A stretch of 64,000 bases of DNA from Azorinus chamasolen (lineage: Eukaryota > Mollusca > Bivalvia > Cardiida > Solecurtidae), in contig OY755242.1 of the NCBI GenBank assembly GCA_963576725.1, positions 63,802,324 to 63,866,323 on the forward strand. The letters run 5' to 3'. Below, piece after piece: positions 10,809-59,006 of the stretch. Below the pieces are notes generated by a model. The model was not told the DNA's origin. It saw nothing but the letters and a program-made list of their open reading frames with translations, and did no database searches. Position 1 is the stretch's first letter. The number at the start of each line of letters is the position of its first letter. Made by a program: the position numbers and the translations under genes.

Positions 10809-11246
10809 AGTAGAACGGGTCATTCATTTATTGAACATAGTAGTCTAAAAAGCAGGTGGATGCTTAACCCTTTCCCTCATATAAACCTGTTTTCACGCAT
10901 TTGCAAACAGAGTAGACCCAGATCAGACGGCTCCTAGAGGAGCCGTCTGATCAGAGTCTGCTCTGTTTGCTGATATAATTTGATAGATCTGTTTCTTTGC
11001 TTTCTAAAATGTGTACAATATTCCACCTTCAATATTTCTTTAAAATTATTTGATTAATGAATACTCAGTAGGTATTGAAATTTGGCCTAAATACAGAACA
11101 GGGAAAGGGTTAATGCAGGTCATAATTAATGCAGAAAGCTCCTATAGGAGCTTTCTGTTTTATGTTTGACCTGCATTAAGCTACCATCTGCCTCACAGTT
11201 AAATAATTATACCTCTTTTTGATGGCCGCTTCAGACATGTTCTACT
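10809..11246. repeat. TA-F MITE hosting an A element
   Basis: F left arm AGCAGGTGGATGCTTAA ends at 10867. F resumes TTAATGCAGGTCATAATTAATGC at 11110. The hairpin closes at GCTCCTATAGGAGC. The insertion target is the TTAA of GCTTAATGCAG. Confidence 0.9.
10868..11109 (+). repeat. TTAA-A MITE, intact reference copy
   Basis: TTAA 10864-10867 and 11110-11113. 242 bp. Core 10903-10970 (68 nt) with tip CTCCTAGAGGAG. Confidence 0.95.
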
Positions 11247-11419
11247 ATATGTAGAATAAAAGACGAGATTCCGTTTGCAGTGCCATTGTGCGAGTTTGGT
11301 ATGCAAACATAATCCAGATTTATTGTAAATGGGTCAAATGTTGTTGTTGGTGGTGTTGTTTTTTCACACATATTAAATATATTATATACTATATATTTAT
11401 AGTTTCTAATTTTGATATA

Positions 11420-11540
11420 CAGTAGGAGCTCGCTAATCCTAACTTTTAATATGAAAAACCCCTGATAATGGTTTAGACTTAGACAGGAGGTTGTTAAATG
11501 AACAGTGAAAACATGCAGAAATCTCCCATTACTTGTATAA
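11420..11540. repeat. TA-family left half, decayed
   Basis: TA then CAGTAGGAGCTCGCTAATCC ... ACATGCAGAAATCTCCC. Nothing recognised at 11250-11415. Confidence 0.45.
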
Positions 11541-11582
11541 GCAAATACATCAGAGCCAGAGTATTATGGAGTAATGGATTAA

Positions 11583-11823
11583 CCACTTCCCTGTTCAATG
11601 TTCGTGTAAGAAATAATGACATCATGAATATTTATTATCTGATATATCTATAATGTAAAATTTTCAAGAATTTTTTTACTTTGAGATAAACTGTAGAAAG
11701 AGATCTATATCATGCCAAAAGCAAACAGAGTAGACCCTGATCAGACGGCTCCAATAGGAACCGTCTGATCTGGGTAAACCCTGTTTACAAATGCAAGAAA
11801 AAACGTTTATATAAAGGAAAGGA
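11583..11823 (-). repeat. TTAA-B MITE
   Basis: TTAA 11579-11582, core 11721-11789 (CAGACGGCTCCAATAGGAACCG), end ATATAAAGGAAAGG with TTAA mutated to TTAC. Confidence 0.85.
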
Positions 11824-11917
11824 TTTACAAAATTCATGAAAATATAAGGGTAACTGTACTGTATTGTGTTCCATATGATCATTATTGAACATCGTTGCTA
11901 TTGCCCAATATTGTAAC

Positions 11918-12083
11918 ATCTCTCCAAATCGGTCATTTAGTGAAGAAAAATAAAATCTTTTTAGGCAGGCGGTTGGTGAAAGGGGGTTTCTGCATAACTT
12001 TCAGCCTGCATTAAGCTACAACATGTCGTACAGATGGACATACATACTAATTTAAACGTCCGGTTTAGAGTGGCATTTCTGTT
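11918..12083. repeat. TA-F MITE, decayed
   Basis: AAATCGGTCATTTAGTGAAG ... GGCAGGCGGTTGG ... CAGCCTGCATTAAGCTACAAC. Confidence 0.5.
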
Positions 12084-12385
12084 AATTACATCGGTTCTCT
12101 TGTCACAATATTCATCATATACAACATGTCCGTATACACAAGAGTCAAAAAGCAGATTTGTTAGAGTACAAAAGACTATTTGACCTTTTTATCGCTTATA
12201 TTGACAAAGTCATTCACGGAGGGGGAAATTATTGAATTTATTAAGAGCAATTTTATCTCCAGATATCCAACTGATTTATACAGGAGTAAATATTAAATAC
12301 TTGCAAAACGATTACAAATGACGGAACCGATAACGCTGTTCCCTATACAAATATTGACGTAGATAAAACTAGATACTTTATAGTA
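12084..12385. other. No recognised feature
   Basis: 300 bp without gene or known repeat. Confidence 0.4.
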
Positions 12386-12465
12386 ATTTAACCCTTATTT
12401 GGCTCTCCGCAACCTGAGTCACTTTGTAAACAGTTTGGATACAGATGAGACGTCGCGTAATTTAA

Positions 12466-13006
12466 CACCTTCCTTTGGTGGCGGTGGTCTAGTGGTAACG
12501 CGCTTGACTATCAGTCCGGAAGTCCGGGGTTCAAATCCCGGTTTCTCCCGGAAATTTCAGAGACGCTTTTCCGTGTCTCCCACCCGCACATCCTCTCCAC
12601 CCAGGGGGTTAAAATGGGTACCTGTGAGGGTCACTCGCCGGTACTGCGGCTGCATGATTGTGCCATATGTTAGCAGTGCTCAATATTGTAGGCCAATGAC
12701 TCAATGACCAGGGGAGTAAATGTACAGTCGGCTGAGCGGTCATTCGGACTGAAAGTAGACTATAACTAGGTACTTTACTTTTTACCTTCCCTCCTAGTGA
12801 CGCCGTTTGACGTCTCTTTGGAAGTCACATTTTGAATGAAACCATTGTGATAAATAGAGCATTTGTTCCATAGGAGTAAATGCTCTATTTATCACAATGG
12901 TTTCAAAACTACACAATTCTGAATTTTTCCCTTTTCTCTAGTAAATGCTCCTTTTTGGTAGATATATTCAAAAGGTAGGGTCTAAAATAGTGTATGAGAG
13001 AATGAG
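12466..13006 (+). repeat. TTAA-C MITE carrying a SINE
   Basis: TTAA 12462-12465 and 13007-13010. CACCTTCC is split from CTCCTAGTGACGCC by the SINE. Palindrome about 12838-12905 intact. Confidence 0.85.
12474..12783 (+). repeat. tRNA-derived SINE, youngest layer
   Basis: Flanked by a 7-bp duplication ACCTTCC (12467-12473, 12784-12790) made from the C terminus. tRNA-like head 12477-12551 with A box TGGTCTAGTGGTAACGC and B box GGTTCAAATCCC, then a body with GGTTAAAATGGGTACC. Not a tRNA gene: the anticodon stem is poor and it carries a 230-bp body. Confidence 0.85.
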
Positions 13007-13098
13007 TTAACTCGGCGTCTCATAAAGATTCAAACGGCTTGACCCTTGGACAGTAGTTTTTTCTAAAGCTTACTCGAATAGGACGTAGTCAATATTAA

Positions 13099-13319
13099 CT
13101 CATTCTCTCCTAGGCTATTTTTAGACACAACCTCTTTGAATAAAACTACCGAAAAGTAGCATTAACTATAGAAAAGGAGAGTTTTAGAACTGTGAAGTAT
13201 TGAAACCATTGTGGTAAATAGAGCATTTGCTCCTATGGAGCAAATGCTCTATTTATCACAATGGTTTCAAAATGTGAATTTTATAGAGGCGCAAAAATGC
13301 GTCACTAGGGGACAATGTG
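13099..13319 (-). repeat. TTAA-C MITE, complete
   Basis: TTAA 13095-13098 and 13320-13323. Palindrome about 13202-13269. 221 bp. Its right TTAA is also the left TTAA of the next element. Confidence 0.9.
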
Positions 13320-13323
13320 TTAA

Positions 13324-13584
13324 CCCTGTCCCCAATGAACAAAGTATGCATGACTTTATCACTTCATGGTTATTCATTTACATGTACTTAGTATTTATAC
13401 TGATTTGTATTGTTTTTCAAAGGAAATGTTAGTTTAGATAAAAACCGTAGAATCAAATCTACATGTATATATAATTCCATAAGCAAACAGAACATCCCTG
13501 ATCAGACAGCACCTACAGGAACTGTCTGATCGGGGTCTACTATGTGTTCAAAGTCATGAAAATGCGTTTATATGAAGTAAAAGG
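13324..13584 (-). repeat. TTAA-B MITE sharing a TTAA with C
   Basis: Starts CCCTGTCCCCAATGAAC after TTAA 13320-13323. Core 13483-13549 (CAGACAGCACCTACAGGAACTGTCTG). Ends GAAGTAAAAGG with TTGA. Confidence 0.8.
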
Positions 13585-13689
13585 TTGAACAGGTCCATAT
13601 TTGAGCAGCTATCATTCTTTCACAGTAGAGGTAAATGTAAGTACATGTATTTAGCATGTCAATCTAATGTTTCTTTGTCCACATTTTCG

Positions 13690-13850
13690 TGCAGTTTATT
13701 TTCACAACGTAAGGTATAATCAGATTGCAACAATTGCAACCGAGATGTCAAACAGTTTGGCACTTCACAAGACGCTGACCTACTTGGCGTCTAATCAGGG
13801 TCTAAGCCGTTTGCAAACATCAAAACACAATTTGGCAGTAGCACTCTAAA
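13690..13850. repeat. E/S-type element, decayed
   Basis: Core 13749-13818: CAAACAGTTTGGCACTTCAC ... GGCGTCTAATCAGGGTCTAA. Termini not found. 13851-14017 holds nothing recognised. Confidence 0.5.
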
Positions 13851-14021
13851 GATTCAAATACTTTATAAAATTGGAAAATAAGTTTGCGTGCTCTTTTATG
13901 GGAATTGTTAAAATATTTTAATTAAATGTTTGCAGGAGTTTTAACTCGTAATTTAGCGGCATGCAGAAAAGCTAATAACAGAAGCAAATGAAAGGGAAAC
14001 ATGTTTTCGTTTATAATTTAA

Positions 14022-14265
14022 CCCTTTCCCTGTTCTATATTTATTTAAAATTTCAATAACTGCTGAATATTCATGGACAACATAGTTATTATGAAATATT
14101 TAAGGTGGAACATTGTAGCAATTTTAGGAACTAAAGAAACAGATTTTTCAAATTCCTCTAGCAAACAGACCAGACCCTGATCAGACGGCTCCTGTAGGAG
14201 CCGTCTGATATGGGTCTTCACTGTTTGAAATTGCGTGAAAAGACGTCAAAATATTAAGGAAATGG
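14022..14265 (-). repeat. TTAA-A MITE, complete
   Basis: TTAA 14018-14021 and 14266-14269. CCCTTTCCCTGTTCTATATT ..., core 14161-14228, 244 bp. Confidence 0.9.
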
Positions 14266-14445
14266 TTAACTTGCACCGATAAGTCACGTATCAAAGCTAT
14301 GCTTTAATAATCCGACATAGCAGTGTGGGCGATGTCGTTATTGCGATTTTATGAAAAACTTTAATTTACTTGAGTACCACATTCATATCCCCGTATCGAC
14401 CAGAATATGAGTTATTAACAAATGTCGATTAATAAGATATCTGAA

Positions 14446-14668
14446 TCCTTTACATCATACATACGCCTTATAATGGTTTTGCAAACAGAGTAGACCCAGG
14501 AGCCGTCTGATCAGGGTCTGTTCTGTTTGCTTTTGATATGCATTGTAATATAAATCTGATTCTATCGTTTTGTTCACGATAAAAAAGCTTTTTGTTCATA
14601 AAACCATTATAAAAGTTCAGTAAATTAATATCCATGACGCCATTATTTCTTACCTGAACATCCGTGCG
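14446..14668 (+). repeat. TTAA-B MITE, core partly deleted
   Basis: Core 14484-14530 reads GCAAACAGAGTAGACCCAGG AGCCGTCTGATCAGGG: the inner left arm is missing while the right is complete. TTAA 14669-14672 at right. Confidence 0.8.
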
Positions 14669-14672
14669 TTAA

Positions 14673-14873
14673 TTCTTTCGCTGCCAAATTTTTATCGTCT
14701 GCAAACATTGTCGTCTGCTACAATTTTCTTTTTCCCCTAAGTTTTGTTTAAAAAAAGTAGTCGTAAGTAACAAACAGATTAGATCTTGATGAGACGCCGA
14801 GTTACTTGGCGTCTCATCTGGATCCAAACTGTTTGTATAAGTAATCACAAATACGACATTCTCAACGAAAAGA
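14673..14873 (-). repeat. TTAA-E MITE
   Basis: TTAA 14669-14672 shared with the B element. TTCTTTCGCTGCC ..., core 14771-14835 with tip GCCGAGTTACTTGGC, ends ACGAAAAGAG. Confidence 0.8.
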
Positions 14874-14880
14874 GTTATTG

Positions 14881-16635
14881 AGATTAATGAACCCTCTACC
14901 TCTTAGATAGGTCCTGTAATTAATGAACCCTCTGCCTCTTAGATAGATCCTGTAATGAGTTAATGAGCTGAATGAACCCTCTACCTCTTAGATATGTCCT
15001 GTAATTAATGAACCCTCTACCTCTTAGATAGGTCCTGTAATGAGTTAATGAGCTTAATGAACCCTCTACCTCTTAGATAAGTCCTGTAATTAATGAACCC
15101 TCTACCTCTTAGATAGGTCCTGTAATGAGTTAATGAGATTAATGAACCCTCTACCTCGTAGATAGGTCCTGTAATGAGTTAATGAGATTAATGAACCCTC
15201 TACCTCATAGATCGATCCTGTAATTAATGAACCCTCTACCTCTTAGATAGGTCCTGTAATGAGTTAATGAGATTAATGAACCCTCTACCTCATAGATCGA
15301 TCCTGTAATTAATGAACCCTCTACCTCTTAGATAGGTCCTGTAATGAGTTAATGAGATTAATGAACCCTCTACCTCATAGATCGATCCTGTAATTAATGA
15401 ACCCTCTACCTCTTAGATAGGTCCTGTAATGAGTTAATGAGATTAATGAACCCTCTACCTCATAGATCGATCCTGTAATTAATGAACCCTCTACCTCATA
15501 GATCGATCCTGTAATTAATGAACCCTCTACCTCTTAGATAGGTCCTGTAATGAGTTAATGAGATTAATGAACCCTCTACCTCATAGATCGATCCTGTAAT
15601 TAATGAACCCTCTACCTCTTAGATAGGTCCTGTAATGAGTTAATGAGATTAATGAACCCTCTACCTCATAGATCGATCCTGTAATTAATGAACCCTCTAC
15701 CTCTTAGATAGGTCCTGTAATGAGTTAATGAGATTAATGAACCCTCTACCTTATAGATAGGTCCTGTAATGAGTTAATGAGATTAATGAACCCTCTACCT
15801 CATAGATCGATCCTGTAATTAATGAACCCTCTACCTCTTAGATAGGTCCTGTAATGAGTTAATGAGATTAATGAACCCTCTACCTCTTAGATAGGTCCTG
15901 TAATGAGTTAATGAGATTAATGAACCCTCTACCTCATAGATCGATCCTGTAATTAATGAACCCTCTACCTCTTAGATAGGTCCTGTAATGAGTTAATGAG
16001 ATTAATGAACCCTCTACCTCTTAGATAGGTCCTGTAATGAGTTAATGAGATTAATGAACCCTCTACCTCATAGATCGATCCTGTAATTAATGAACCCTCT
16101 ACCTCTTAGATAGGTCCTGTAATGAGTTAATGAGATTAATGAACCCTCTACCTCTTAGATAGGTCCTGTAATGAGTTAATGAGATTAATGAACCCTCTAC
16201 CTCATAGATCGATCCTGTAATTAATGAACCCTCTACCTCTTAGATAGGTCCTGTAATGAGTTAATGACATTAATGAACCCTCTACCTCATAGATCGATCC
16301 TGTAATTAATGAACCCTCTACCTCTTAGATAGGTCATGTAATGAGTTAATGAGATTAATGAACCCTCTACCTCATAGATCGATCCTGTAATTAATGAACC
16401 CTCTACCTCTTAGATAGGTCCTGTAATGAGTTAATGAGATTAATGAACCCTCTACCTCATAGATCGATCCTGTAATTAATGAACCCTCTACCTCTTAGAT
16501 AGGTCCTGTAATGAGTTAATGAGATTAATGAACCCTCTACCTCTTAGATAGGTCCTGTAATTAATGAACCCTCTACCTCTTAGATAGGTCCTGTAATTAA
16601 TGAACCCTCTACCTCTTAGATAGGTCCTGTAATGC
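14881..16635 (+). repeat. Satellite with alternating 36- and 49-bp monomers
   Basis: Base monomer TTAATGAACCCTCTACCTC + TTAGATAGGTCCTGTAA (36 bp). Every second monomer adds 13 bp (TGAGTTAATGAGA), giving 49 bp. In the regular part, 36-mers carry CATAGATCGATCC and 49-mers CTTAGATAGGTCC, so the higher-order unit is 85 bp. Runs of consecutive 36-mers at the right end (16545-16635) and irregular order at the left (14881-15110) mark array edges. Confidence 0.95.
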
Positions 16636-16636
16636 C

Positions 16637-16693
16637 TTAGCAAACACCGTAGATCCAGACCAGACGGATCGTGTAGGACCATGCTTCGTTTGC
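16637..16693. repeat. Core remnant at satellite edge
   Basis: AGCAAACACCGTAGATCCAGA ... GCTTCGTTTGC. The satellite appears to have grown inside or beside a palindromic element. Confidence 0.45.
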
Positions 16694-16747
16694 TTATGCA
16701 ATAGTACAGTTTCTACCATGATCGAACATGCTCTTGTACAAATTTAA

Positions 16748-16968
16748 CCCATTTGCCCCCATGATCCCATATATGGGACGTAGGCAAACAATGTAGACTC
16801 TGATCAGACGCCGCATTATGCGGCGTCTGATCAGAGTTAACACTGTTTGCTGATAGGAATTTCAATATTAAACCAAACGAAATTGACAATTTAGGCCAGG
16901 CACCCCTTAGATAAAGAATGGACAAATCCAATATATAATCATGGAAGAATCCATTGGGAGCAAATGGG
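16748..16968 (+). repeat. TTAA-L MITE, complete
   Basis: TTAA 16744-16747 and 16969-16972. CCCATTTGCC ... GCAAATGGG. Core 16784-16850 (67 nt) with tip GCCGCATTATGCGGC. 221 bp. Confidence 0.9.
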
Positions 16969-17007
16969 TTAATTTAAATAATAATCACAGTGTCATTACA
17001 CGGAGGG

Positions 17008-17045
17008 TATCGGCGTCTTATAAGGATCCAAGGATCCAAACTGCT
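17008..17045. repeat. E/S core right-arm remnant
   Basis: ATCGGCGTCTTATAAGGATCC AAGGATCCAAACTGC, with a local duplication of AAGGATCC. Confidence 0.45.
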
Positions 17046-17695
17046 AGTTAGTATTAGTATGAAAAGATGAGAAATATATATGTCTGTGAAGCTGGCTCGG
17101 AGGTCGCCTATCGACTTTCGTCTTCATATATACATGTATAAGGAAACTGCAGGTCGTGCTTGAAATATATACACCCCGGTCTTAGTCTTACAGAGCTCCA
17201 GATAATGGTGCGTACCTATGTTGAACCGCAAATTTCACGCCACCCATTTTTCACACGTGTGAAATTTGCGGCCCCAATTTTCACATAATTTGTGAAAATT
17301 GCGTTTTGTTCCTATACCCCCCTTCAAAGCCCGACGCATTTTTCACATATGTGAAAAATGCGTCGAGACGATGTTCTAAAATATTCACTTCAAAACACGC
17401 GACCCATTTTTCACACGTGAGAATATATTGAAGTGGACAAATGTCTTTGGTCATTTCGGTTATAGACCAAGGTCGCAGGGATCGAAATGCCTGATTTGTA
17501 TTACAATTCAGAAGTTGATTTGGGTGCTTACTCAATATACTTATTTGATTAAAATATAATTATGGGTCACGTGGGAAAAACATATTTGGAGTTCCTTGTT
17601 AATCCTTTAGCGTCCACATATTTAATATGCATTATGATTGTGTCTGCATTTGATGCCCCCGTGTTGGCGCACATCTTGTTGCCGCTGTACATAGT

Positions 17696-18159: not shown

Positions 18160-18368
18160 GATATGTACACCGTCGATAGTTCTTATAGTTTGACATCATT
18201 ATGTTCCTTGTGAAAAGGATTATTTCAGTTACCATACTTCGTCTTTTACCTGTTTTTTTATCTTTACTTTAGCATTGTCGGAAATCGCAGGCCCACCGAA
18301 ATTATTGTGTTTCGCAAACACATCTTGTTTGTGAGAATGCCAAATCTCTTGGGAGAAAAGAATGTGGA

Positions 18369-19806: not shown

Positions 19807-20309
19807 CAGGGGATATTACTGTCATAAATATAATTCAGGGACAAAGCTACCCTATCCGATACTAATTCAATGTCCTGATGTCTGTTTAAGATCTCTCGTA
19901 TCAACAATAGCAAAACCATCTATTGACATATATGTGAAAAATGCGGTGGTATTAGTAGGTCTTCAAAAAATGGGGTTAAAGTGCTACCGCATTTATCACA
20001 GCAGGGTTTTGTGAAAAATGGGGCCCCATTTTTCACATATGTGAAAAATGGGGCCGCAAATTTCACGCGTGTGAAAAATGCGTCAACCCATTTTTCACAC
20101 GTGTGAAAAATGGGTGGCGTGAAATTTGCGGTTCAACATACCTATATACTAAAATCGTCATTTCTCCACCAAACCCTATACTGTGACCACTCTTTAGAAT
20201 CGTCTCTTTGAGACGATTCTAAAGAATGGTCATAGTATACGTTCTGGTGGAGAAATAAAGGAGCTGTTCTTGAAAATTGTTTACGTTTACGCATCTATCT
20301 GGACCCTGT

Positions 20310-22204: not shown

Positions 22205-22412
22205 CAGAAAGTCTCGCTAATGCGACCACTTACATGCATTTACATAACAGTCTGTAAATCCATGTGGTTGCCTAAGGCAGGGCAAAAGTAATGCAGACAG
22301 CTCCTATAGGAGCCTCCTGCATAACTTTTGCCCTGCATTAAGCTACCACTTGTTTAACATATCCATAATTATACTTCTATACAGTGGTTGTATTAGTGGG
22401 CCGATATTGCTG
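22205..22412. repeat. TA-F MITE
   Basis: CAGAAAGTCTCGCTAATGCG ..., palindrome about 22263-22352 with tip GCTCCTATAGGAGC, right end GTGGGCCGATATTGCTG. Follows the previous F within 5 bp. Confidence 0.8.
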
Positions 22413-24053: not shown

Positions 24054-24069
24054 TTAACTCATAGTTTAA

Positions 24070-24298
24070 CCCTTTCCTCCATAGAAAATGCTATTTTTAG
24101 ATCCAACCACTTTGAAATAAATCTACCGAAAAGGAGCATTAACTAGAGAAAGGAAAACTTTTTTAGAATTTTGTAGTTTGAAACCATTGTGATAAATAGA
24201 GCATTTGCTTCTATAGGAATAAAAGCTCTATTTATCACAATGGTTTCATAAAGTGACTTTTACAGATGCGTAGAAAGGCGTATTAATGGAGGAAAGGG
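24070..24298 (-). repeat. TTAA-C MITE, complete
   Basis: TTAA 24066-24069 and 24299-24302. Palindrome about 24180-24247. 229 bp. Confidence 0.9.
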
Positions 24299-24329
24299 TT
24301 AATGGTGGCGTGTGAGAAAAAGAATATTT

Positions 24330-25568: not shown

Positions 25569-25762
25569 CAGAGCTACACGTAAGGATGCGTACCTAAGTA
25601 CTAAAATCGTCATTTCTCCATCAAACCCTATACTGTGACCACTCTTTAGAATCGTCTCTTCGAGACGATTCTAAAGAGCGGTCAGAGTATAGGGTTTGGT
25701 GGGGGGAATAAAGGAGTTATTCTTGAAAATGTTTTGATTTACACATCTTATCTGGAACTCTG
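25569..25762 (+). repeat. G element, complete
   Basis: CAGAGCTACACGTAAGGATGC ... CACATCTTATCTGGAACTCTG. Palindrome about 25612-25705 with tip CGTCTCTTCGAGACG. 194 bp. Confidence 0.85.
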
Positions 25763-26600: not shown

Positions 26601-26666
26601 CGTAGACTGAGATAATACCACTAGTGTATTAGGTGACCTCAGCATTTCACCGACTATTTCAACTTA

Positions 26667-26870
26667 CAGTAAAACCTCTCTATAACGGCCATTAAATTAA
26701 ATCAAGTATCTTGTGTTAATGGCTGGTGGCTGCTTAAAGCAAGGTGAAAGTAAAATAGAACGCTCCTATAGAAGCGTTTTGTTTTACTTTCACCTTGCTT
26801 TAAGCAGCCACCTGTCCTAAATACCAACTAATTAACACGATTTAGTGGTCGTTATAGAGAGCTTCTACTG
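26667..26870. repeat. TA-P MITE, complete
   Basis: TA 26665-26666 and 26871-26872. CAGTAAAACCTCTCTATAACG ... AGAGCTTCTACTG. Hairpin arms AAAGCAAGGTGAAAGTAAA. 204 bp. Confidence 0.9.
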
Positions 26871-27049
26871 TATACTATTTAATTTAATCACTACAATGTA
26901 TAGGCAATCGGACTACGAGTCTAACCATGCAGCTGCACGAGCTTCACGAGAAATTCGCTCGTCAATTTAAGCAAAACCCTGTTGTATAGAATAGAATAGT
27001 TTGGTAAAAACCAAATATATTAATAAAAACGACAGGTCACCCCTACTTG

Positions 27050-27670: not shown

Positions 27671-27674
27671 TATA

Positions 27675-27879
27675 CAGTAAAACCCCGCCAATGCAACCAC
27701 CTAAAAGAGGTATAATTCTTTGTGCCAGATGCAGGTGGTAGCTTAATGCAGGACAAAAGTAATGCAGAAAGCTCCTAGAGGAGCTTTCTGCATTACTTTT
27801 GTCCTGCATTAAGCAACCACCTGCTTATAAAGATACCCATGTTTAATCATTAAGTGGTCGCATTAGAGTGGTTCTACTG
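27675..27879. repeat. TA-F MITE, intact
   Basis: TA 27673-27674 and 27880-27881. Almost perfect palindrome from CAGGTGGTAGCTTAATGCAGG to CCTGCATTAAGCAACCACCTG with tip CTCCTAGAGGAG. 205 bp. Confidence 0.9.
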
Positions 27880-27895
27880 TATATGTATTCATATA

Positions 27896-29054: not shown

Positions 29055-29248
29055 CAGAGCAACAGATAAATGTGCGCACTAAAATACTAAAATCGTCATT
29101 TCTCCACCAAACCCTATGTTGTGACCAATCTTTAGAATCGTCTCAAAGAGACAATTCTGAAGAGTGGTCGCAACATAGGGTTTGGTGGAGAAATAAAGGA
29201 GACTATCTTCAAAAAGTTTTAATCTACGCATCTTATCTAGAGCTCTCC
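29055..29248 (+). repeat. G element
   Basis: CAGAGCAACAGATAAATGTGCG ... ACGCATCTTATCTAGAGCTC. Palindrome about 29100-29198 (CCACCAAACCCTATGTTG / CAACATAGGGTTTGGTGG). Confidence 0.8.
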
Positions 29249-33573: not shown

Positions 33574-33766
33574 CAGAGTTACAAATAAAGATGCATACCC
33601 AAATACTAAAATCGCCATTTCTCCACCAAACCCTATGCTGTGACCACTCTTTAGAATCATATCTTCGAGGTGATTCTAAAGAGCGGTCACAGTATAGGGT
33701 TTGGTGGAGAAATAAAGGAGTTTATCTTGAAAATGTTTAAATTTACACACCTTATCTGGACATCTG
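33574..33766 (+). repeat. G element
   Basis: CAGAGTTACAAATAAAGATGC ... CACACCTTATCTGGACATCTG. Palindrome about 33617-33712. Confidence 0.8.
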
Positions 33767-34566: not shown

Positions 34567-34771
34567 CAGTAAACCCTCTATATAACGGCCACTAAATTAG
34601 ATCAAGTATTTTGTGTTAAAGGCAGGTGGCTGCTTAAAGCAAGGTGAAAGTAAAACAGAACGCTCCTATCGGAGCGTTCTGTTTTACTTTCACCTTGCTT
34701 TAAGCAACCACCTGCCCCAAAATACAAACTAATTAACACAATTTAGCGACCGTTATAGGGAGGTTTTACTG
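34567..34771. repeat. TA-P MITE, complete
   Basis: CAGTAAACCCTCTATATAACG ... GGGAGGTTTTACTG, TA 34772-34773. Near-perfect palindrome with tip CTCCTATCGGAG. 205 bp. Confidence 0.9.
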
Positions 34772-40531: not shown

Positions 40532-40768
40532 ACCCCATGCCCTGTTCTGTGTTTATTCCAAATTTCATGAATTTTCATGGCCAACTAGTTATAATGAAAT
40601 ATAGAAGGTGGACTAATTGTAGCCATTCTAAAAAGTAAAGAAACAGATATATCAAAATCCATTAGCAAACAGAGCAGACCCTGATCAGACGGCTCCTATA
40701 GGAGCCGTCTGATCTGGGTCTACTCTGTTTGCACATGCGTTAAAATGTGTTTATATGAGGGAAATGGT
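40532..40768 (-). repeat. TTAA-A MITE
   Basis: Left CCCATGCCCTGTTCTGTG, core 40665-40732 (68 nt, intact), TTAA 40769-40772. Confidence 0.85.
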
Positions 40769-45720: not shown

Positions 45721-45900
45721 ACCCTTCTATCCGCTTCATGACTCGCATTTGCAAACCGGTTGGATCCAGATGAGACGTCGAGTAACTCGGCGTCTCATCA
45801 GGATCCAACCTGTTTGACACACGGTCAACAGTTTATCAAAAACTTTATGGAATAGGAAGTTATCAAAATTGCACCCGATCCAAATTTGAGCAGACTTTTT
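45721..45900 (+). repeat. TTAA-S MITE
   Basis: ACCCTTCTATCCGCTTCATG ..., core 45751-45816 with tip GTCGAGTAACTCGGC, tail ACACGGTCAACAGTTTATC. Confidence 0.7.
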
Positions 45901-50923: not shown

Positions 50924-51241
50924 GCATTTTACCTGGTGAATATGCATGTAATAAATAATGAGATCATTAATATTCATTATTTGATTTTTTTATAATGGCG
51001 TATGAATATGGGATGTGTTGACCAGGGCAGTAACTGTAGAATCAGAACTATATAACTCGATAAGCAAATACAGCGGACTTGGCCAGGATCAGTCTGGCTT
51101 TGGTCTACTCTGAATCAGATCTGTGTCATATCAAAAGCAAACAGAGCAGATCCTGATCAGACGGCTCCTATAGGAGCCGTCTGATCTGGGTCTACTCTGT
51201 TTGCAAATGTGTGAAAATGCGTATTTATCAGGTGAAGGGGG
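50924..51241 (-). repeat. TTAA-B MITE with duplicated core region
   Basis: TTAA 50920-50923. A decayed core (51063-51108) precedes an intact one (51137-51204), each led by GAATCAGA(A/T)CT, so about 75 bp is tandemly duplicated. Ends GGTGAAGGGG, TTAC. Confidence 0.75.
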
Positions 51242-51290
51242 TTACATTACAGGTGTTAGTCGGACTTGATTTATTCCACACCTATGTTAA

Positions 51291-51873: not shown

Positions 51874-51877
51874 TTAA

Positions 51878-52168: not shown

Positions 52169-52295
52169 TTAATAATGAAATCTGCCAACCTAAAGCGTTG
52201 TATGTTGTCTTATATACATGTACGTGGATCATTGTCATTCACCACGTGAAATTGGTAAGAATAAACAGTAACGCTAGATCTCATGTGTATATTAA

Positions 52296-52836
52296 CCTTT
52301 CGTCCGATCGAAACGCTTTTTGACGGTTTAGAACAAAGACCAGACAGTTCCTTTAGAAACCACCTGCTCATTGTCTACACTATTTGTTAATGAAAATATA
52401 GATCTGCTTTCTAGTTTCTGACATGGACAGATATTCATGTTTTCATATACCATTGTAAAACATATTTACAGTTGAACTTCGATATATCGGACTCGGATAA
52501 CTCGAACTTTGGATAACTCGAACTAAAAGGTCTGTCCTTCCAAACTTTACAACACAGAATTTTTCTAGAATGTTTCACAACACATTTCTAGAAACACATG
52601 TGACAGCTTAATGCAGGTCAAAAGTAATGCTGAAAGCTCATACAGGAGTTTTCAGTATTACTTTAGACCTGCATTAAGCTGTGAACTTGTGATATTAGTC
52701 AGATCGGGTGACTCGAACCTCTATTATCTCGAACTAATCTGTATGGTCCCTTGAAGTTCGAGATATCGGAGTTCAACTGTAATTGATATTCACGACGTTA
52801 TATTATTTCTGAAATGAATATTAATCAGGTAAAGGC
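52296..52836 (+). repeat. TTAA-B MITE hosting an N element
   Basis: TTAA 52292-52295, gutted core, AAAACATATTTA|N|TAATTGATATTCACGACG, end AATCAGGTAAAGGC with TTAG. Confidence 0.75.
52469..52779. repeat. TA-N MITE, intact, inside B
   Basis: TA 52467-52468 and 52780-52781. CAGTTGAACTTCGATATATCG ... ATATCGGAGTTCAACTG. Hairpin arms CAGCTTAATGCAGGTCAAAAG / GACCTGCATTAAGCTG. 311 bp. Confidence 0.9.
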
Positions 52837-52840
52837 TTAG

Positions 52841-53125
52841 CACGGAGTTTGTGCGTGAAAGAATCCTGGTATTGTAAAGTGCATTCTTACCCCGTGCACG
52901 CTAGCGTTGATCACCAACCTGTTCGATTCCTTATTACGCAGTATCACCGTGTCCCAAATTGTTAGACACTGTGACATGCGTGTTTGAAGAGAAAATAGAA
53001 TAAAATTTTCCTATCAGAATATCAGAAAATCTGATTTTCAGAATGCTGCAAATGAATTCAGAAGAGAATTACTTTAAGCGTGCCCAGAACGGTTAAAATT
53101 TCGCCTGATTAATCAGTATCGGCGA
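52841..53125. other. No recognised feature
   Basis: About 285 bp. Imperfect TCAGAATATCAGAAAATCTG word near 53014. Confidence 0.4.
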
Positions 53126-53129
53126 TAAC

Positions 53130-53494
53130 CGACAACTAAATAAATAGATATGAATGGATTTAAACGAAGATGGTTGCACAATGCAGGAAAACAAATGATA
53201 TAGAAAGGGAGCTTCCCGATAACTTCAGTTCTGATTGAAGCCACCACTTGCCTCCAAGACCCAGAATTAGACCTCATTTTGTGACCGCATTAACCTTTTA
53301 CTCCATGAATATTTATGTAAGAAATAATGACGTCATCAATATTGACGACTTGAGTTTTTATAATGGAACACGGACTAAGAAAGTTTTGGCCATATCATGA
53401 ACTGTAGAGCCACATCTATATAATGCAATAAGCAAGCAGAGCAGACCCTGATCAGACGGCTCCTATAGGAGGAAAGGGTTAAAGAGGATGTACT
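53130..53494. repeat. TA-F MITE hosting a B element
   Basis: AAACGAAGATGGTTGCACAATGC ... GAAGCCACCACTTGCC ... GACCGCATTAA|B|TTAAAGAGGATGTACTG, TA after 53494. Confidence 0.75.
53294..53478 (-). repeat. TTAA-B MITE lacking its entire right hairpin arm
   Basis: TTAA 53290-53293 and 53479-53482. GACGGCTCCTATAGGAG joins the terminus GAAAGGG directly. 185 bp. Confidence 0.9.
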
Positions 53495-53618
53495 GTATTG
53501 TAAATTGCAATGGCAAATATTTGATCAGTGGGCTATATTTATCACTTTAACTCTGAAAGTGGAACACATATGATTTTAATGAGCATGCATTGAGCGTTAT
53601 GATGGTACTTTAAAAAGC

Positions 53619-53820
53619 TTTATCCCGCTACCCGCGGCCTGACTCGTGCTTGCAAACAGCTTGGACCCAGATGAGACGCCGAGTAACTCGGCGTCTCATC
53701 AGGATCCAAGCTGTTTGACACTCGGTCAAGAGTTTCTCAAACGCTTATCGAAACGGAAGTAGCCAGAATTGCACCAGATGCAAAATTAAGCAGACATATT
53801 TTTTCACTGCGGGGTAGTGG
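53619..53820 (+). repeat. TTAA-S MITE
   Basis: TCCCGCTACCCGCGGCCTG ..., core 53652-53717 (tip CGCCGAGTAACTCGGCG), ends CTGCGGGGTAGTGG, TTAA 53821-53824. Confidence 0.8.
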
Positions 53821-53965
53821 TTAATTGACAAGACGGTAATAAGATACGGATCATTATTTATTCAAATATTTAGTATGACATAACATCTTAAAATGTTTAC
53901 CAATGGATCTCTTTCGGGCATGATATACCCATCTCAAAATTGAATTCTGTACTTATCGGCCTTAG

Positions 53966-54177
53966 CCCTTACATGTACGACGTTGAATTTTCATATGGAC
54001 TATTCCAAAATTTAAACAGGTGAAGCTTACGAAGAATATTTGGGGAGTTTTTCTAAAGAAAAGTGTCACATGACAAACAGTGCAGACCCAGATGAGAGGG
54101 CTCCTTTAGGAGCCCTCTCATCTGGGTCGTCACTGTTTGCAAAGGACATTAGTGACTCGTGTCCCGCACTATAAGGG
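53966..54177 (-). repeat. TTAA-Q MITE, complete, TTAG flanks
   Basis: CCCTTACATGTACGACG ... CGCACTATAAGGG. Core 54073-54140 (68 nt; tip GGGCTCCTTTAGGAGCCC). Flanked by TTAG (53962-53965, 54178-54181), not TTAA. 212 bp. Confidence 0.85.
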
Positions 54178-54214
54178 TTAGCATTTTATGCTGAAAACGT
54201 CTACTCAGACCTGA

Positions 54215-54383
54215 ACTTCTGATTTTTTTTACTAGCTTCCGATTCGTTCAAACTTTTAAGAAACTACTGGCCGAATGCGTCAAGGAGGATGGATCCTGAT
54301 GAGACGCCGAGTTACTCGGCGTCTACTCTGGATCAAAGCTGTTTGCAAGTTCAAATCGAATCGCGCTTTGCACGAGAAAGCTT
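54215..54383 (-). repeat. TTAA-S MITE, decayed
   Basis: GATTCGTTCAAACTTTTAAG ..., core about 54279-54346 (tip CGCCGAGTTACTCGGCG), GCAAGTTCAAATCGAATCGC. Confidence 0.6.
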
Positions 54384-54590
54384 TAATAATTGATTGAAGG
54401 TTTTTTAGAGAGGTGTTTGTCACTTCTCTTTCTGTCTGTTCGCCGTTCTATTGAACCACATATCGGCGTAGAAAGGCATATCGACTTGTCTATCTCCCTT
54501 TATGTCATGGTGGGATATTATTTCAAAGTGGGTTGTCGCATGTATCTGTACAGATTAATGAGCAAGTGATCCGACTCTTTTATAAAGACA
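54384..54590. other. No recognised feature
   Basis: No gene or known repeat seen. Confidence 0.4.
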
Positions 54591-54595
54591 CTTAA

Positions 54596-54827
54596 CCTTT
54601 ACCTTGTCAATCAAGACGTTTGTCACATTTTGTCACATTTTGTCACATTTGCAAACAGTTTGGGTCCAGATGAGACGACGAGTAACTCGGCGTCTCATCA
54701 GGACCCAATATGTTTTTGTTTTCACGCAGTCTATACTTTAAATGAAAAATAAACGAATCGTATAATGTTTATAATATGCTGTAGACAAGAAATTGAGTAG
54801 ACGATAATTCTAATAACAGGAAAAAGA
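54596..54827 (+). repeat. TTAA-E MITE with a 10-bp tandem repeat
   Basis: TTAA 54592-54595. CCTTTACCTTGTC; TTTGTCACAT three times (54620-54650); core 54651-54717; end AGGAAAAAGA with TTGA. Confidence 0.75.
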
Positions 54828-54831
54828 TTGA

Positions 54832-55071
54832 TTCCTTTGAAGTGCATTTCATTAGCGATAACCCATGTTCTTACTGACACAGGTTAGTCAATGGAATAAT
54901 GCAGCTTATAGAGAGTACAGCACTCAAGCCGACAGCATTACAATCAAGATTCTACTGTCACTACGTGTCAAGACAGTGCATGCGAAAAATAGAATTTGCA
55001 TGTTCGTGTGATCTTGGGACGAGTCAAGGTGGAATGCCTGTCAACGTGAGTGTATGCAATTGCGTTTGCCT
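54832..55071. other. No recognised feature
   Basis: No gene or known repeat seen. Confidence 0.4.
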
Positions 55072-55075
55072 TTAA

Positions 55076-55315
55076 CTCTTTACCTGCTGAGTATTCATGT
55101 AAGAATTAATGACATCATGAATATTTATTAGCTGATTTTTACAATGGGATGCGTCCACACGAATATTTGGTGTTTGTGGAAAGTGTAGAATCGGGTATAT
55201 ATTATTTCATAACCAAACAGGACAGACCCAGAACAGACGGTTCCTACAGGAGCCGTCTGATCTGGGTCTACTCTGTTTGCAAATGCATGAAAAGAGGTTT
55301 ATAAAAAGGAAGGGG
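55076..55315 (-). repeat. TTAA-B MITE
   Basis: TTAA 55072-55075. CTCTTTACCTGCTGAGTATTC ..., core 55213-55280, ends AAAGGAAGGGG. Right TTAA lost. Confidence 0.8.
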
Positions 55316-55335
55316 ATAGTTCATTATGTGATTAA

Positions 55336-55589
55336 CCCTTTCCCTCATAACCCTTTCCCTTATAACGTGTTTTCACACATTTGCAAACAGAGTAGACCCA
55401 GATCAGACGGCTCCTAGAGGAGCCGTCTGATCAGGGTATACTCTGTTTGCTAATAGAATTTGATAGATCTGTTTCTTTACTTTCTAAAATGTCTACAATG
55501 TTCCACCTTCCATATTTCTTTATAAGTATTTCGTTAATGAATATTCAGTAGGTACTGAACATTGGCCTAAATACAGAACAGGGAAAGGG
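55336..55589 (+). repeat. TTAA-A MITE with doubled left terminus
   Basis: TTAA 55332-55335. CCCTTTCCCTCATAA is followed at once by CCCTTTCCCTTATAACG. Core 55383-55450. Right flank TTAT. Confidence 0.85.
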
Positions 55590-55593
55590 TTAT

Positions 55594-55876
55594 TGTCATT
55601 GTAAATCTCCATCTAATTAATATTCATGATGTCAAAAAATCTTTCAGGAATATCCAGGGTTATATGGTCATTTAATGCATATATAGGCATTGAACGACCT
55701 TTCAAACAGAGTTTGATCAGGGCCTACTATATTTGTTCATGGAATACTGAATAGATCTGATTCTACAGTCTCTATCATGATTACAACGTCATAAGTGCAC
55801 ACGTCATTATCCAAATCAGCTAATCAATAATCATTACCTCATTGTTTCTTATATGGATATTCATGAAGTAAAAGTT
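55594..55876 (+). repeat. Two TTAA-B pieces
   Basis: A right-half fragment (to about 55665), then a B with a collapsed core (CAAACAGAGTTTGATCAGGGC, 55704-55734) and end ATTCATGAAGTAAAAG. Confidence 0.6.
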
Positions 55877-55960
55877 TATATCTAGAAGAAAGGCAGCTTG
55901 TAAATTGCAGTAAATCTCGATATTTCGAATACTAAAACAAGCATCATCATAGGTATTTAA

Positions 55961-56161
55961 CCCTTTCCTTCATATAAACGTGTTTTCACGCATTTGCCTA
56001 TAGGAGCCGTCTGATCAGGGTCTGCTCTGTTTGCTAATGGAATTTGATAGATCTGTTTATTTACTCTCTAAAATCGATATAATATTCCACCTTCCATATT
56101 TCTTTATAACTAGTTTGGCCACGGATTTGAAATCTGAAATAAACATAGAACAGAGAAAGGG
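55961..56161 (+). repeat. TTAA-A MITE, left hairpin arm deleted
   Basis: TTAA 55957-55960 and 56162-56165. GCATTTGC joins CCTATAGGAGCCGTCTG, so about 35 nt is missing up to the tip. 201 bp. Confidence 0.9.
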
Positions 56162-56165
56162 TTAA

Positions 56166-56386
56166 CACATTGCCCCGTAGTGACGCATTTTTGCGCCTCT
56201 ATAAAATTCACATTATGAAACTATTGTGATAAATATAGCATTTACTCCTTTAGGAGCAAATGCTCTATTTATCACAATGGTTTCAAATTACAAAATTCTA
56301 AAATATTCCTTTTCTCTAGTTAATGCTCCTTTTCGGTAGATTAATTCGAAAAGGTTTGATCTAAAAATAGCCTAGGAGAAAATGAG
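56166..56386 (+). repeat. TTAA-C MITE sharing a TTAA with A
   Basis: TTAA 56162-56165 and 56387-56390. Palindrome about 56217-56284. 221 bp. Confidence 0.9.
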
Positions 56387-56529
56387 TTAAGACAGGTGAC
56401 AGCTTAGTGCAGGATGAAAGTCGTGCAAAAAGCTCCTCTGGGACTTTCATCCTGCAACAAGCAGCAACAATCTGACTAAAAGGCATACATGTTTGATTAC
56501 TAAATGTTCGAAGTATCGAGTTTTTCTGT

Positions 56530-56890
56530 ATGTTCTATGTATTTTATTATACCATCCCATCTTTTGTTCATCATGAGGTGCCACACCTGGATTTGTTTTC
56601 CACGTCATAGGCGAACGCTTTGCCAAAACGTTTTGTTTGCTGCTCTTTCATGTAACTTGTGTCAGGATTATTATTATAATACGGCAAGTATTTCTACTGT
56701 TTGGCACTGGGATTGTACAATTACCTTAAGTAAAATATTTCAAACATCTGAAAGGTTGTTCACTGTGTACATGTAAGTTGTTTTATTATCAATGTATTTG
56801 ACGGGATATAGTCGTTTTAATAACTATGATATACACATGTATTTCAATAATGGTCCATCTTTAAACACCGTTACTGTATTGGAAGTGACA
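56530..56890. other. No recognised feature
   Basis: About 360 bp without MITEs. A 90-codon frame has no recognisable motif. Confidence 0.4.
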
Positions 56891-56892
56891 AT

Positions 56893-57086
56893 CAGAGGAC
56901 CAGATAAGATGCGTAAATAAAACATTTTCAAGAGTAACTTCCTTATTGTTTCACCAAATCCTATGATGTGAACACTCTTTAGAATCCTCCCTCTTCGAGA
57001 CGATTCTAAAGAGTGGTCACAACATAGGGTTTGGTGGGGAAATGGCAATTTAAGTATTTGAGCATGCGCCTTTATCTGTTGCTCTG
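56893..57086 (-). repeat. G element, complete
   Basis: CAGAGGACCAGATAAGATGCG ... GCCTTTATCTGTTGCTCTG. Palindrome about 56945-57042. 194 bp. Confidence 0.85.
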
Positions 57087-57146
57087 AAGTGTGACATCCA
57101 CTGTATGACAAGGTGTTCGTAAAGGCGTTTATATGAAAGTGAGGGT

Positions 57147-57313
57147 TAAAACATTTACAAAAATAACTTCTTTATTGTTTCAGCAATCCCTATGATGTGA
57201 TCACTCTTTAGAATCGTCTCGAAGAGACGATTCTAAAGAGTGGCCACAACATAGGATCTGGTGGAGAAATGGTGATTTAAGTATTTGAATAAGTACCTGT
57301 ATCTGTTGCTCTG
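57147..57313 (-). repeat. G element, 5'-truncated, duplicated neighbour
   Basis: Palindrome GTCTCGAAGAGACGATTC; ends CTGTTGCTCTG. Both G copies are followed by AAGTGTGACA(T/G)CCA, so element and flank were probably duplicated together. Confidence 0.75.
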
Positions 57314-57319
57314 AAGTGT

Positions 57320-57399
57320 GACAGCCAGTGTTCGTATATGTGTTCGTAACATCGAGAAACGGACGTTAATCAACACAATCAATCAATCAATCAATCAGT
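57320..57399 (+). repeat. SINE 3' tail with (AATC)n
   Basis: ACATCGAGAAACGGACGTTAA followed by (CAAT)n. A tail type common in molluscan SINEs. Confidence 0.6.
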
Positions 57400-57452
57400 C
57401 GTAACGTCGTTTTGTTTTCAAGACAAATGGAGAAGAACAGTGTTCCGTATTA

Positions 57453-57770
57453 CAGTAAACTCATGTTAATCCGATTACTCATATACGTGTCATTATCGGT
57501 CTTTAACCCTTTACCCCATGAATATTCATATCAGAAATAATGGATATTAATTAGATTACATTTTATAATGGTTAATCTACAGAACACAAGTTTAGCCACG
57601 ACAGAAACTTTAGATTCAGATCTATATTATTCCATAAGCAAACAGAGCAGACCCTGATCAGACGGGTCCTACAGGAGCATTCTGGTTTGGGTCTTCTTGG
57701 TTTGCACATGCGCAGAAAGGCGTATTTATGGAGCGAATGGTTCAGACAGATGGTACCTCAACGGAGGGGG
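57453..57770. repeat. TA-family element, decayed, hosting a B
   Basis: TA 57451-57452 then CAGTAAACTCATGTTAATCCG, TTAA, B. A short F-like remnant follows B. Confidence 0.55.
57507..57739 (-). repeat. TTAA-B MITE
   Basis: TTAA 57503-57506. CCCTTTACCCCATGAATATTC ..., core 57638-57705, end GGAGCGAATGG with TTCA. Confidence 0.8.
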
Positions 57771-57776
57771 AATTAA

Positions 57777-57989
57777 TCCAGAAACATTTTCATCAGTGTT
57801 TGGCTGTGATCGTATGCGTTTAGTCATATTTCCATACTAGTTGTACAGATGATAAAATAAGTCTATAAGCCATTGACACAGATGGGCTCCATTAATCGTG
57901 CATACTTTGATCAGAGGACCCCAGGAGCCCTCTGGTCTGGGTCAACACTGTTTGTCTATGCCCTGTAAGGGACACTAAGCGCACATGGG
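57777..57989 (-). repeat. TTAA-V MITE, tandem copy 1
   Basis: TTAA 57773-57776 and 57990-57993. CATCAGTGTTTGGCTGTGATC ..., core CTTTGATCAGAGGACCCCAGG AGCCCTCTGGTCTGGG, end GCGCACATGGG. Confidence 0.8.
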
Positions 57990-57993
57990 TTAA

Positions 57994-58182
57994 ATTGCGC
58001 CAGTGTTCGACTGTGATCGTATGCGTTTAGTCGTATTTCCCTACTAGTTGCACATAGGATAAAATTAGTCTATAGACCATTGACCGTGCAAAATCTGATC
58101 AGAGGTCTCCTCCAGGAGGCCTTTAATCTGGGTCTACACTGTTTTCCTATGTCATTTTTAAGGGACACTTGGCACACTTGGG
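57994..58182 (-). repeat. TTAA-V MITE, tandem copy 2
   Basis: TTAA 57990-57993 and 58183-58186. Same orientation as copy 1. Core about 58085-58145. Holds CTACTAGTTGCACA uninterrupted. Confidence 0.85.
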
Positions 58183-58186
58183 TTAA

Positions 58187-58505
58187 TTTCATCACTGTTT
58201 GACCGTTATCGTATAAGTTTATTCATATTTCCCCTACTACAATGAACACTCAATTATTCGAACACTTTAAATACGTAGCCTACCATTATTGATCTTTAAC
58301 ACAGGTGACAGCTTAATGCAGGGATGAAAGTCATGCAGAACACTTCTCAGGAGCTTTCTGCATGACTTCCACCCTGCATTAAGAAGCATCCTGCCTACAA
58401 AGACATAAATTCTTTATTACTAAAATTTCGAAGTATCGAGTTTTTTTATGTAGTTGCACAGAGGGTAAAATATCAAACTATTGATCTACACAGCATTATA
58501 CAGGT
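58187..58505 (-). repeat. TTAA-V MITE, tandem copy 3, split by F2
   Basis: TTTCATCACTGTTTGACCG ... CCCCTACTA|F2|TAGTTGCACAGAGGGTAAA. The right half fades out after about 58505. Confidence 0.8.
58240..58450. repeat. TA-F2 MITE inside V copy 3
   Basis: TA 58238-58239 and 58451-58452. Ends CAATGAACACTCAATTATTCG and ATTTCGAAGTATCGAG. Palindrome about 58311-58383. 211 bp. V copies 1 and 2 show the empty site. Confidence 0.9.
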
Positions 58506-58509
58506 TTTA

Positions 58510-58725
58510 TTGGTGGTAATAGTGAACCTGTAAATAAATCTTTTGTACTATCCTATTTGAGACTGAAAAATGATCCAGTAAAACCCCTCAAATTAAACAA
58601 ACATTGACGGTCTTCGTGTCACAGTACTGTTTGGTTTTCATCTTCGAAAGCACAGTAGCGCAAGCAAGTCTTTCATTTACAAACAATAAAAGTAAACGTA
58701 GCTATGGAATGCAAACAGAAGGGAA
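58510..58725. other. No clear feature
   Basis: A TA-family left-end stub (CAGTAAAACCCCTC) at about 58576. Nothing else seen. Confidence 0.4.
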
Positions 58726-58782
58726 CACGGTATACCCTCTCTTCAACGGCCTGTCGAACAACGTCTAATTTTGCTTCTCTAA

Positions 58783-59006
58783 CTCATTCTCTCCTAGGCT
58801 ATTTTAGACTCAACCTCTTTGACTGTATCTACCGAAAAGGAGCATTAACTAGAGGAAAGGAAAACATTAGAATTTTATAGTTTGAAACCATTGTGATAAA
58901 TAGAGCATTTGCTCCTATAGGAGCAAATGCTCTATTTATCACAATGGTTTCATAAAGTGACTTAGAACTATAGATGTGCAAAAATGCGTCACTAGGGAAT
59001 AATGTG
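58783..59006 (-). repeat. TTAA-C MITE with perfect 68-nt palindrome
   Basis: Left CTAA, right TTAA 59007-59010. Palindrome 58884-58951 has no mismatch; tip GCTCCTATAGGAGC. 224 bp. Confidence 0.95.

Follow-up and report, generated by a model that had tools for sequence, protein, structure and literature searches.

The stretch of the bivalve Azorinus chamasolen analysed here (64,000 nucleotides (nt) of contig OY755242.1, positions 63,802,324 to 63,866,323, assembly GCA_963576725.1; hereafter the window) contains miniature inverted-repeat transposable elements (MITEs) with an internal hairpin, and our subject is the 14-nt tip, GCTCCTATAGGAGC, that closes such hairpins. The initial annotation of the window had described this tip in MITEs of two kinds, one with TTAA duplications and CCC...GGG ends (its families A, B and C) and one with TA duplications and CAGT...ACTG ends (F, N and P), on stems that it regarded as unrelated. 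With as many as 3 mismatches allowed, GCTCCTATAGGAGC matches the window at 66 places, while 100 dinucleotide shuffles gave 1.05 matches on average and never more than 4. The annotated copies, with lengths in base pairs (bp) where given, are as follows.

308..515, plus strand: complete P element with TA, CAGTACAACCTCTCTATA ends and a central hairpin; exact tip GCTCCTATAGGAGC at 405-418
26665..26872, plus strand: complete P element; tip at 26762-26775, 1 mismatch
34621..34716, no strand assigned: P hairpin with 46-bp arms, 98% complementary; tip at 34662-34675, 1 mismatch
27673..27881, plus strand: complete F element with TA and CAGTAAAACCCC ends; tip at 27771-27784 (GCTCCTAGAGGAGC)
22261..22352, no strand assigned: F hairpin; exact tip at 22300-22313; no element ends found by the end search
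24066..24302, minus strand: complete C element with TTAA, CCCTTTCC ends; tip at 24207-24220, 3 mismatches
1306..1375, no strand assigned: C hairpin; exact tip at 1334-1347; a TTAA end found only at 1427
58883..58952, no strand assigned: C hairpin with 38-bp arms, 100% complementary; exact tip at 58911-58924
10864..11113, plus strand: complete A1 element, TTAA, CCCTTTCCCTC...AACAGGGAAAGGG, TTAA; tip at 10930-10943, 1 mismatch
6940..7190, plus strand: A1 element with TTAA ends; exact tip at 7010-7023
40660..40737, no strand assigned: A hairpin; exact tip at 40692-40705
51164..51177, no strand assigned: exact tip of the 'B' family of the initial annotation, on the same stem as A

All five tips that had been named as examples are present without mismatch, a few bases from where they had been placed (405-418, 1334-1347, 22300-22313, 40692-40705 and 51164-51177), although two of them, in P and C, lie outside the range of 10868-59006 that the initial annotation had given for its own claim. 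Both element ends were found for the P copy (308-515), whereas the other four are truncated or degraded, or their ends escaped the end search.

Abundance of the tip and ends of the elements

The tip is by no means confined to the window, as GCTCCTATAGGAGC occurs in 178,273 exact copies in the 1.72-Gb genome while its reversed control occurs in none; exact 26-mers of the A1 stem number 18,448 genome-wide. For comparisons between copies we used a sample of 264 kb in total, made up of the window and 20 stretches of 10 kb from 14 contigs (4,570 bases are masked in one stretch and 200 in another), and each of the 20 stretches holds at least one copy of the tip at up to 2 mismatches. The half-site GCTCCT, paired around a 2-nt loop (GCTCCT-nn), was found 77 times in this sample, and 67 of the 77 continue into a stem in which 13 or more of the following 20 pairs are complementary. 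The runner-up among palindromic half-sites with a 2-nt loop, CATGAA, was found 18 times, in no case with over 10 complementary pairs among the 20, and it was rejected as a second shared tip because long palindromes lack it (5-10 of the next 20 pairs). Its 18 half-site pairs correspond to a recurrent short palindrome, CATGAATATTCATG, at 922, 5463, 8253 and 25171 of the window and at 13 sites of the sampled stretches, often near a CCCTTT end and without a long stem around it.

Majority-consensus alignments (12 rows for A1, 11 for C and 26 for P, some P copies being entered in both directions) have sharp edges at TTAA in A1 and C and at TA in P. The A1 consensus runs from TTAA through CCCTTTCCCTC...AACAGGGAAAGGG to TTAA over about 250 bp, with the hairpin close to one end; that of C has CCCATTCCCTC...GGTAATGGG between TTAA duplications (about 235 bp); and that of P has CAGTAAAACCTCTCTATAACGGCC...ACTG between TA duplications (about 208 bp), with a central hairpin. 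In a set that includes eight loci (L001-L008) fetched via the tip itself, both ends and a TTAA duplication were found for 25 of 129 A hairpins and 6 of 23 C hairpins, and both ends and a TA duplication for 16 of 54 F/P hairpins. The opposite class appeared once in A, where two TA motifs flank a TTAA element by chance, and not at all in C or F/P; the search gave no complete end pair for the other hairpins of the set. The tip is thus shared by TTAA- and TA-type MITEs, as had been claimed, and the alternative of a tip that belongs to one superfamily, with misclassified copies in the other, is contradicted. With lengths of about 208-255 bp, sharp edges and their genome-wide number of exact tips the elements qualify as MITEs; judged by duplications and ends, A and C are assigned to the piggyBac MITEs (TTAA, CCC...GGG) and F and P to the Tc1/mariner-pogo MITEs (TA, CAGT...ACTG).

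We also classed elements by their ends alone and only then looked for hairpin and tip. A tip-bearing hairpin accompanies 36 of 107 TTAA ends and 29 of 65 TA ends, and random segments of matching lengths hold the tip, with no hairpin demanded, in 27% (TTAA lengths) and 22% (TA lengths) of cases. The excess of tip hairpins over random segments is therefore clear for TA ends but weak for TTAA ends taken alone. Among the copies listed, F-type hairpins stand behind several differing interiors of the terminal inverted repeats (TIRs).

One apex on three unrelated stems

Palindromes were sought with the inner 14 nt ignored, which yielded 205 in the sample. By their stems these fall into classes A1 (49), A2 (26), A4 (22), A3 (11), F (27), P (12), C (20) and E (12), with 26 others, and we found a GCTCC-type apex on most A1, A4, F, P and C stems, while most A2, A3 and E apices are of other types (GCCGAGTWACTCGGC, CGCCTTTTCAAGGCG, CGTCTC...GAGACG). 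When hairpins were located by stem anchors alone and the 14-nt gap between the anchors was then compared, the apex consensus in A, F, P and C was GCTCCTnnAGGAGC. The gap measures 14 nt in 113 of 150 A, 39 of 50 F, 18 of 19 P and 14 of 27 C hairpins, and 9 of the 27 C copies have a 13-nt form that differs solely in the loop.

The arms of F and P match at 19-21 of 27 sites and are therefore of one stem lineage, and A and B have one stem, which leaves three stem lineages in total; A1 and F match at 10-11 of 27 sites, and A1 and C at 7-8 (p 0.40-0.61). The earlier view of unrelated stems was thus right for three lineages but not for A against B or F against P, and its family N was not identified. 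The apex GCTCCTnnAGGAGC is common to these three unrelated stems, that is, to A/B and C of the TTAA, CCC...GGG MITEs and to F/P of the TA, CAGT...ACTG MITEs. When the order of base pairs was shuffled within each stem, the same pairs 2-7 arose in A, F and C stems together in 0 of 400,000 shuffles, and in any two of them in 340. The arms flanking 225 tips (up to 3 mismatches) both belong to one family in 197 cases (131 A, 49 F and 17 C); of the rest, just one arm is recognisable in 21 and neither arm in 3, and 4 carry labels from two families. Mixed arms of this kind could have indicated recombination at the tip, but we rejected them, as one arm or both are weak (14-15 of 20) in each of the four and none is convincing. 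Of the exchange between hairpins that the initial annotation had put forward, arm exchange via the tip is accordingly not seen (0 convincing of 225), and exchange of the tip only stays as a rival.

Several structural details accompany these hairpins. The A hairpin stretch at 40655-40742 folds as DNA with -36.4 kcal/mol (z -11.8). In A hairpins with the 14-nt tip, pair 17 from the centre is an A.A mismatch (T.T on the opposite strand) in 92 of 113, and pair 24 is usually non-Watson-Crick (12% paired); by eye, A3 hairpins with another tip have their oddities at the same two positions. A-superfamily hairpins with tip GCCGAGTWACTCGGC or CGCCTTTTCAAGGCG are centred in the window at 45783, 53684, 21094 and 63123. 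Family E hairpins (ATTCTAAAGAGTGGTCACAACATAGGG stem, tip CGTCTC...GAGACG) lie at 20160-20256, 29098-29194, 33617-33713 and 25618-25702, and the E elements, with TCAGAG...CTCTGA ends, apparently form a third superfamily with a tip of its own. The window further holds an inverted-repeat element at 2879-2977 whose 41-bp arms enclose a centre that is not palindromic (another copy lies at L012 8026), a row of several short palindromes of type TTTTCACACGTGTGAAAA at 20030-20110, and, at 63268-63804, the sole listed open reading frame of at least 150 amino acids (178 amino acids), for which no Pfam family was found.

Substitution pattern and origin of the hairpin

We compared complementary double changes between source lineages in the clamp, i.e. 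pairs 2-7 next to the two loop sites (nn), and in the stem. A pair was counted as changed when 12 or more of 113 A copies, or 5 or more of 50 F+P copies, carried such a change; with these cut-offs, which were chosen after viewing the table, paired changes were found at 15 of 62 stem pairs (5 of 25 in A, 10 of 37 in F+P) as opposed to 0 of 12 clamp pairs. In the F+P alignment, into which several copies were entered in both directions, 94 of 110 double changes are complementary, with 25.7 doubles expected, and the P copies have 5 double changes, none of them complementary, in 1,190 pair cells. The loop sites behave differently from the clamp: in A they are changed in 88 of 226 cells compared with 139 of 1,356 for the 12 clamp sites (p = 4e-24), and in F in 29 of 78 compared with 52 of 468 (p = 7e-8), both p values being overstated because the tests count copies and not events. 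In the homogeneous families P and C the loop sites are changed in 7 of 64 cells and the clamp sites in 30 of 384 (p = 0.46). Hypermutation of the loop was rejected on this ground, and the loop is therefore free to vary between sources and is not a mutation hotspot.

Single-sided changes per cell were 0.167 in the clamp and 0.183 in the stem of A, 0.177 and 0.196 in F+P, and 0.155 and 0.066 in C (14 copies), where the clamp decays more. Ongoing selection on individual copies was rejected, since tip and stem decay alike in A and F+P and the clamp decays faster in C. Selection on an RNA strand was likewise rejected, as mismatch types show no strand preference and no G.U excess: mismatches of G.T type and A.C type are nearly equal, at 97/107 in A, 45/34 in F, 22/16 in P and 6/6 in C, the A and F counts being oriented by the hairpins' own mismatch, which is usable in 92 of 113 and 21 of 39 copies.

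To trace the hairpin to elements that carry a transposase, we examined piggyBac and pogo-like loci. The A1 right end AACAGGGAAAGGG is identical over 20 of 20 nt to the end of a transposase-bearing piggyBac (PF13843), whose family has TTAA followed by CCCTTTCCCTGTTC at its ends; one copy of about 5.4 kb (L043+L036) has both ends seen, and for another (L042+L037) the left end only was seen. No GCTCC hairpin native to this A1-related piggyBac was found in the two copies; its interior contains MITE-like A pieces with the tips deleted. Such A1-like pieces, with hairpin tips deleted on one side, lie at about 950-1170 of L037, and similar palindromes occur in L035 and L036. A scan of 12 piggyBac loci, covering the transposase domain and 1.5 kb on either side, with ends determined for few loci, gave the tip at up to 2 mismatches in two and in none of the other ten. 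In one of the two (L032) the tip lies outside the TTAA ends of the piggyBac, and in the other (L039) it lies within a stretch that is missing from the sister copy L033; a further locus (L041) has one tip at three mismatches. Pogo-like transposases (PF03184) are also present in the genome, and no native tip hairpin was found in three such elements (L044 223-3269, L045 409-3090 and L046 246-3279): the tips seen in L044 and L045 fall beyond the bounds of the element itself, and the A2-like hairpin within L046 lacks the GCTCC tip. An autonomous P/F partner, with CAGTAAAACC/CAGTAAAACCTCTCTATAACGG ends, was not found, the three pogo-like elements examined having CAGTC ends. Inheritance of the tip from transposase-bearing elements was rejected, as the two piggyBac copies and the three pogo-like elements have no native tip hairpin, and with these five elements the tip-hairpin module therefore looks specific to MITEs, as judged on few elements.

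The nearest precedent, compared by description, is that of the coral CMITEs (Acropora, PMC2872659), which are described in the accessible text as TTAA piggyBac-like MITEs with CCCTTTC-type ends and an interior that varies less from family to family than the TIRs do, does not come from autonomous piggyBac, and is suspected by the authors of a role in transposition. Both sets have TTAA, but the CMITEs are, in that text, one superfamily and about 100 bp long, whereas here there are two superfamilies and lengths of 208-255 bp; the words hairpin and palindrom are absent from that paper. Neither word occurs in the accessible part of a bivalve transposon survey (PMC10294476). The piggyBac superfamily shares with our MITEs TTAA and the 20-nt A1 end AACAGGGAAAGGG, but the transposase-bearing element with that end has no native tip hairpin; F and P resemble pogo/Tigger and Tc1-mariner MITEs in the TA duplication and CAGT...ACTG ends, from which the three pogo-like elements examined differ in their CAGTC ends and in lacking the native hairpin. 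Rolling-circle origin hairpins combine a conserved loop with a variable stem. The hairpins studied here are like these in having a fixed apex on a stem kept for pairing only, and differ in that the paired clamp is fixed and the loop is free.

In searches of an open-access library with few subscription journals, no description of a tip shared across transposon superfamilies was found, and for shared MITE interiors the CMITE paper was the sole relevant one; the statement in the initial annotation that none was known holds to that extent, qualified by what the accessible text on coral CMITEs (PMC2872659) describes. Twelve stem strings had no match in open-access papers, and the string CTCCTATAGGAG appeared, as far as their accessible text goes, only in four seemingly unrelated ones. 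Hairpins were absent from virus contigs for three patterns, and bacterial and archaeal contigs gave a single match, at a contig end of the metagenome-assembled genome Spirochaeta sp. LUC14_002_19_P3, which we take to be from a clam-gill metagenome. There, an A4-like hairpin and a TTAA end lie at the edge of the spirochaete-binned contig (L029 1-90), and this is probably host DNA joined to bacterial sequence.

Explanations of the shared apex

Of the three explanations offered by the initial annotation, selection on the tip fits best, with the modification that it would act on source elements, while a process that builds palindromes has no positive evidence. Our preferred, if tentative, explanation is that the hairpin is a DNA module specific to MITEs and that selection acts on its apex in the source elements and not in individual copies. 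TTAA (piggyBac-like) and TA (pogo/Tc1-mariner-like) MITEs both carry an internal hairpin with a stem of about 30-45 bp, in which the pairing would be kept in source elements while the sequence is free to change, and the apex is a clamp of five to six base pairs, GCTCC(T)/(A)GGAGC, which would be kept in sequence around a small free loop. The fixed clamp, the free loop, the pairing-only stem and the recurrence of this clamp under two transposase systems suggest that the apex of an extruded DNA hairpin is read by a shared factor, which would be a host protein and neither transposase. Such a factor may raise the amplification of the source element, for instance if it holds or nicks the hairpin when the DNA is replicated or undergoes repair following excision, and the second superfamily may have gained the apex through exchange or convergence. 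That one candidate factor, encoded by the host or by a third element, works in cis on the DNA hairpins of MITEs that depend on two unrelated transposases is a more doubtful proposition than selection on the apex as such.

A number of observations weigh against apex selection. The constancy of the clamp relative to the stem is, taken alone, not significant (Fisher p = 0.11), and in C (14 copies) neither clamp nor stem has a paired change. Inserted copies carry no signal of selection after insertion and decay neutrally. Among 38 TTAA elements found with both ends in the ends-only classing, the tip is present in 14 and a different hairpin in 9, and the remaining 15 lack a hairpin. The A superfamily includes hairpins with wholly different tips (GCCGAGTWACTCGGC, CGCCTTTTCAAGGCG, GCCGCATTATGCGGC), and E hairpins carry the CGTCTC tip, so that the GCTCC apex is not obligatory and GCTCCTnnAGGAGC is therefore not required.

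Close behind apex selection comes its main rival, exchange without function, a possible but doubtful account in which gene conversion, or template switching at hairpin tips, transferred the tip or a core of some 26 nt (CAGAnnGCTCCTnnAGGAGCnnTCTG) from one nested MITE to another, and the transferred piece then hitch-hiked with successful sources. Nested MITEs do occur in this genome (L046 2615; L039 562), the tip has been replaced wholesale inside the A superfamily, and CAGA/TCTG two bases past the tip is common to A1 and F/P (4 of the 6 next positions, shuffle p about 0.05). However, the CAGA core is missing from C (0 of 6), and E, with another tip, agrees equally well with F at the six positions in question (4 of 6, p about 0.02), so that the core is weak evidence for exchange; the four tips labelled from two families, none convincing with a weak arm of 14-15 of 20, do not help it, and a passively moved block would not predict a free loop next to a fixed clamp. 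Deep common descent, in which an ancestral hairpin was captured across superfamilies and its stems diverged by paired changes while the tip stayed, would draw on the same paired-change drift that is real in F/P stems (10 of 37 pairs) and on the arms of A1 and P, which match at 12-13 of 27 sites (p 0.04-0.06). We consider it improbable, as A1 and C, within one superfamily, match at just 7-8 of 27 (p 0.40-0.61), the tip would still need a constraint to outlast saturation of the stem, and no intermediate stems were noticed among the 205 palindromes, in which no search was aimed at them.

A function at the RNA level, with the apex of a transcript hairpin bound by RNA-processing or double-stranded-RNA-binding proteins as in pre-microRNAs, seems to us unlikelier still. 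The long near-perfect hairpins and the conserved A.A (or T.T) mismatch at pair 17 of the A stem (92 of 113) would suit it, and MITE-derived microRNAs have been reported, according to the accessible text of PMC1784062; against this, G.T-type and A.C-type mismatches are about equal in A, F, P and C, Rfam gave 0 matches at gathering score in the window, and a trans-acting RNA gives the carrier element no advantage. Chance, misclassified copies or an assembly or adapter artefact is very hard to credit: the shared part amounts to only about six independent base pairs, but the apex arose in 0 of 400,000 shuffles, the end classes are separate, and copies with up to 2 mismatches are present in 20 of 20 stretches from 14 contigs.

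If a single apex-reading factor exists, MITEs of different superfamilies would be selected for the same tip, in a parallel to viral replication origins, which have a common loop on differing stems. Apex, stem and loop can be altered separately, which makes the idea directly testable. Why MITEs so outnumber their autonomous partners is an old question. The module occurs in the MITEs of two superfamilies, none of the transposase-bearing elements examined has it natively, and it thus points to an amplification signal that does not depend on the transposase.

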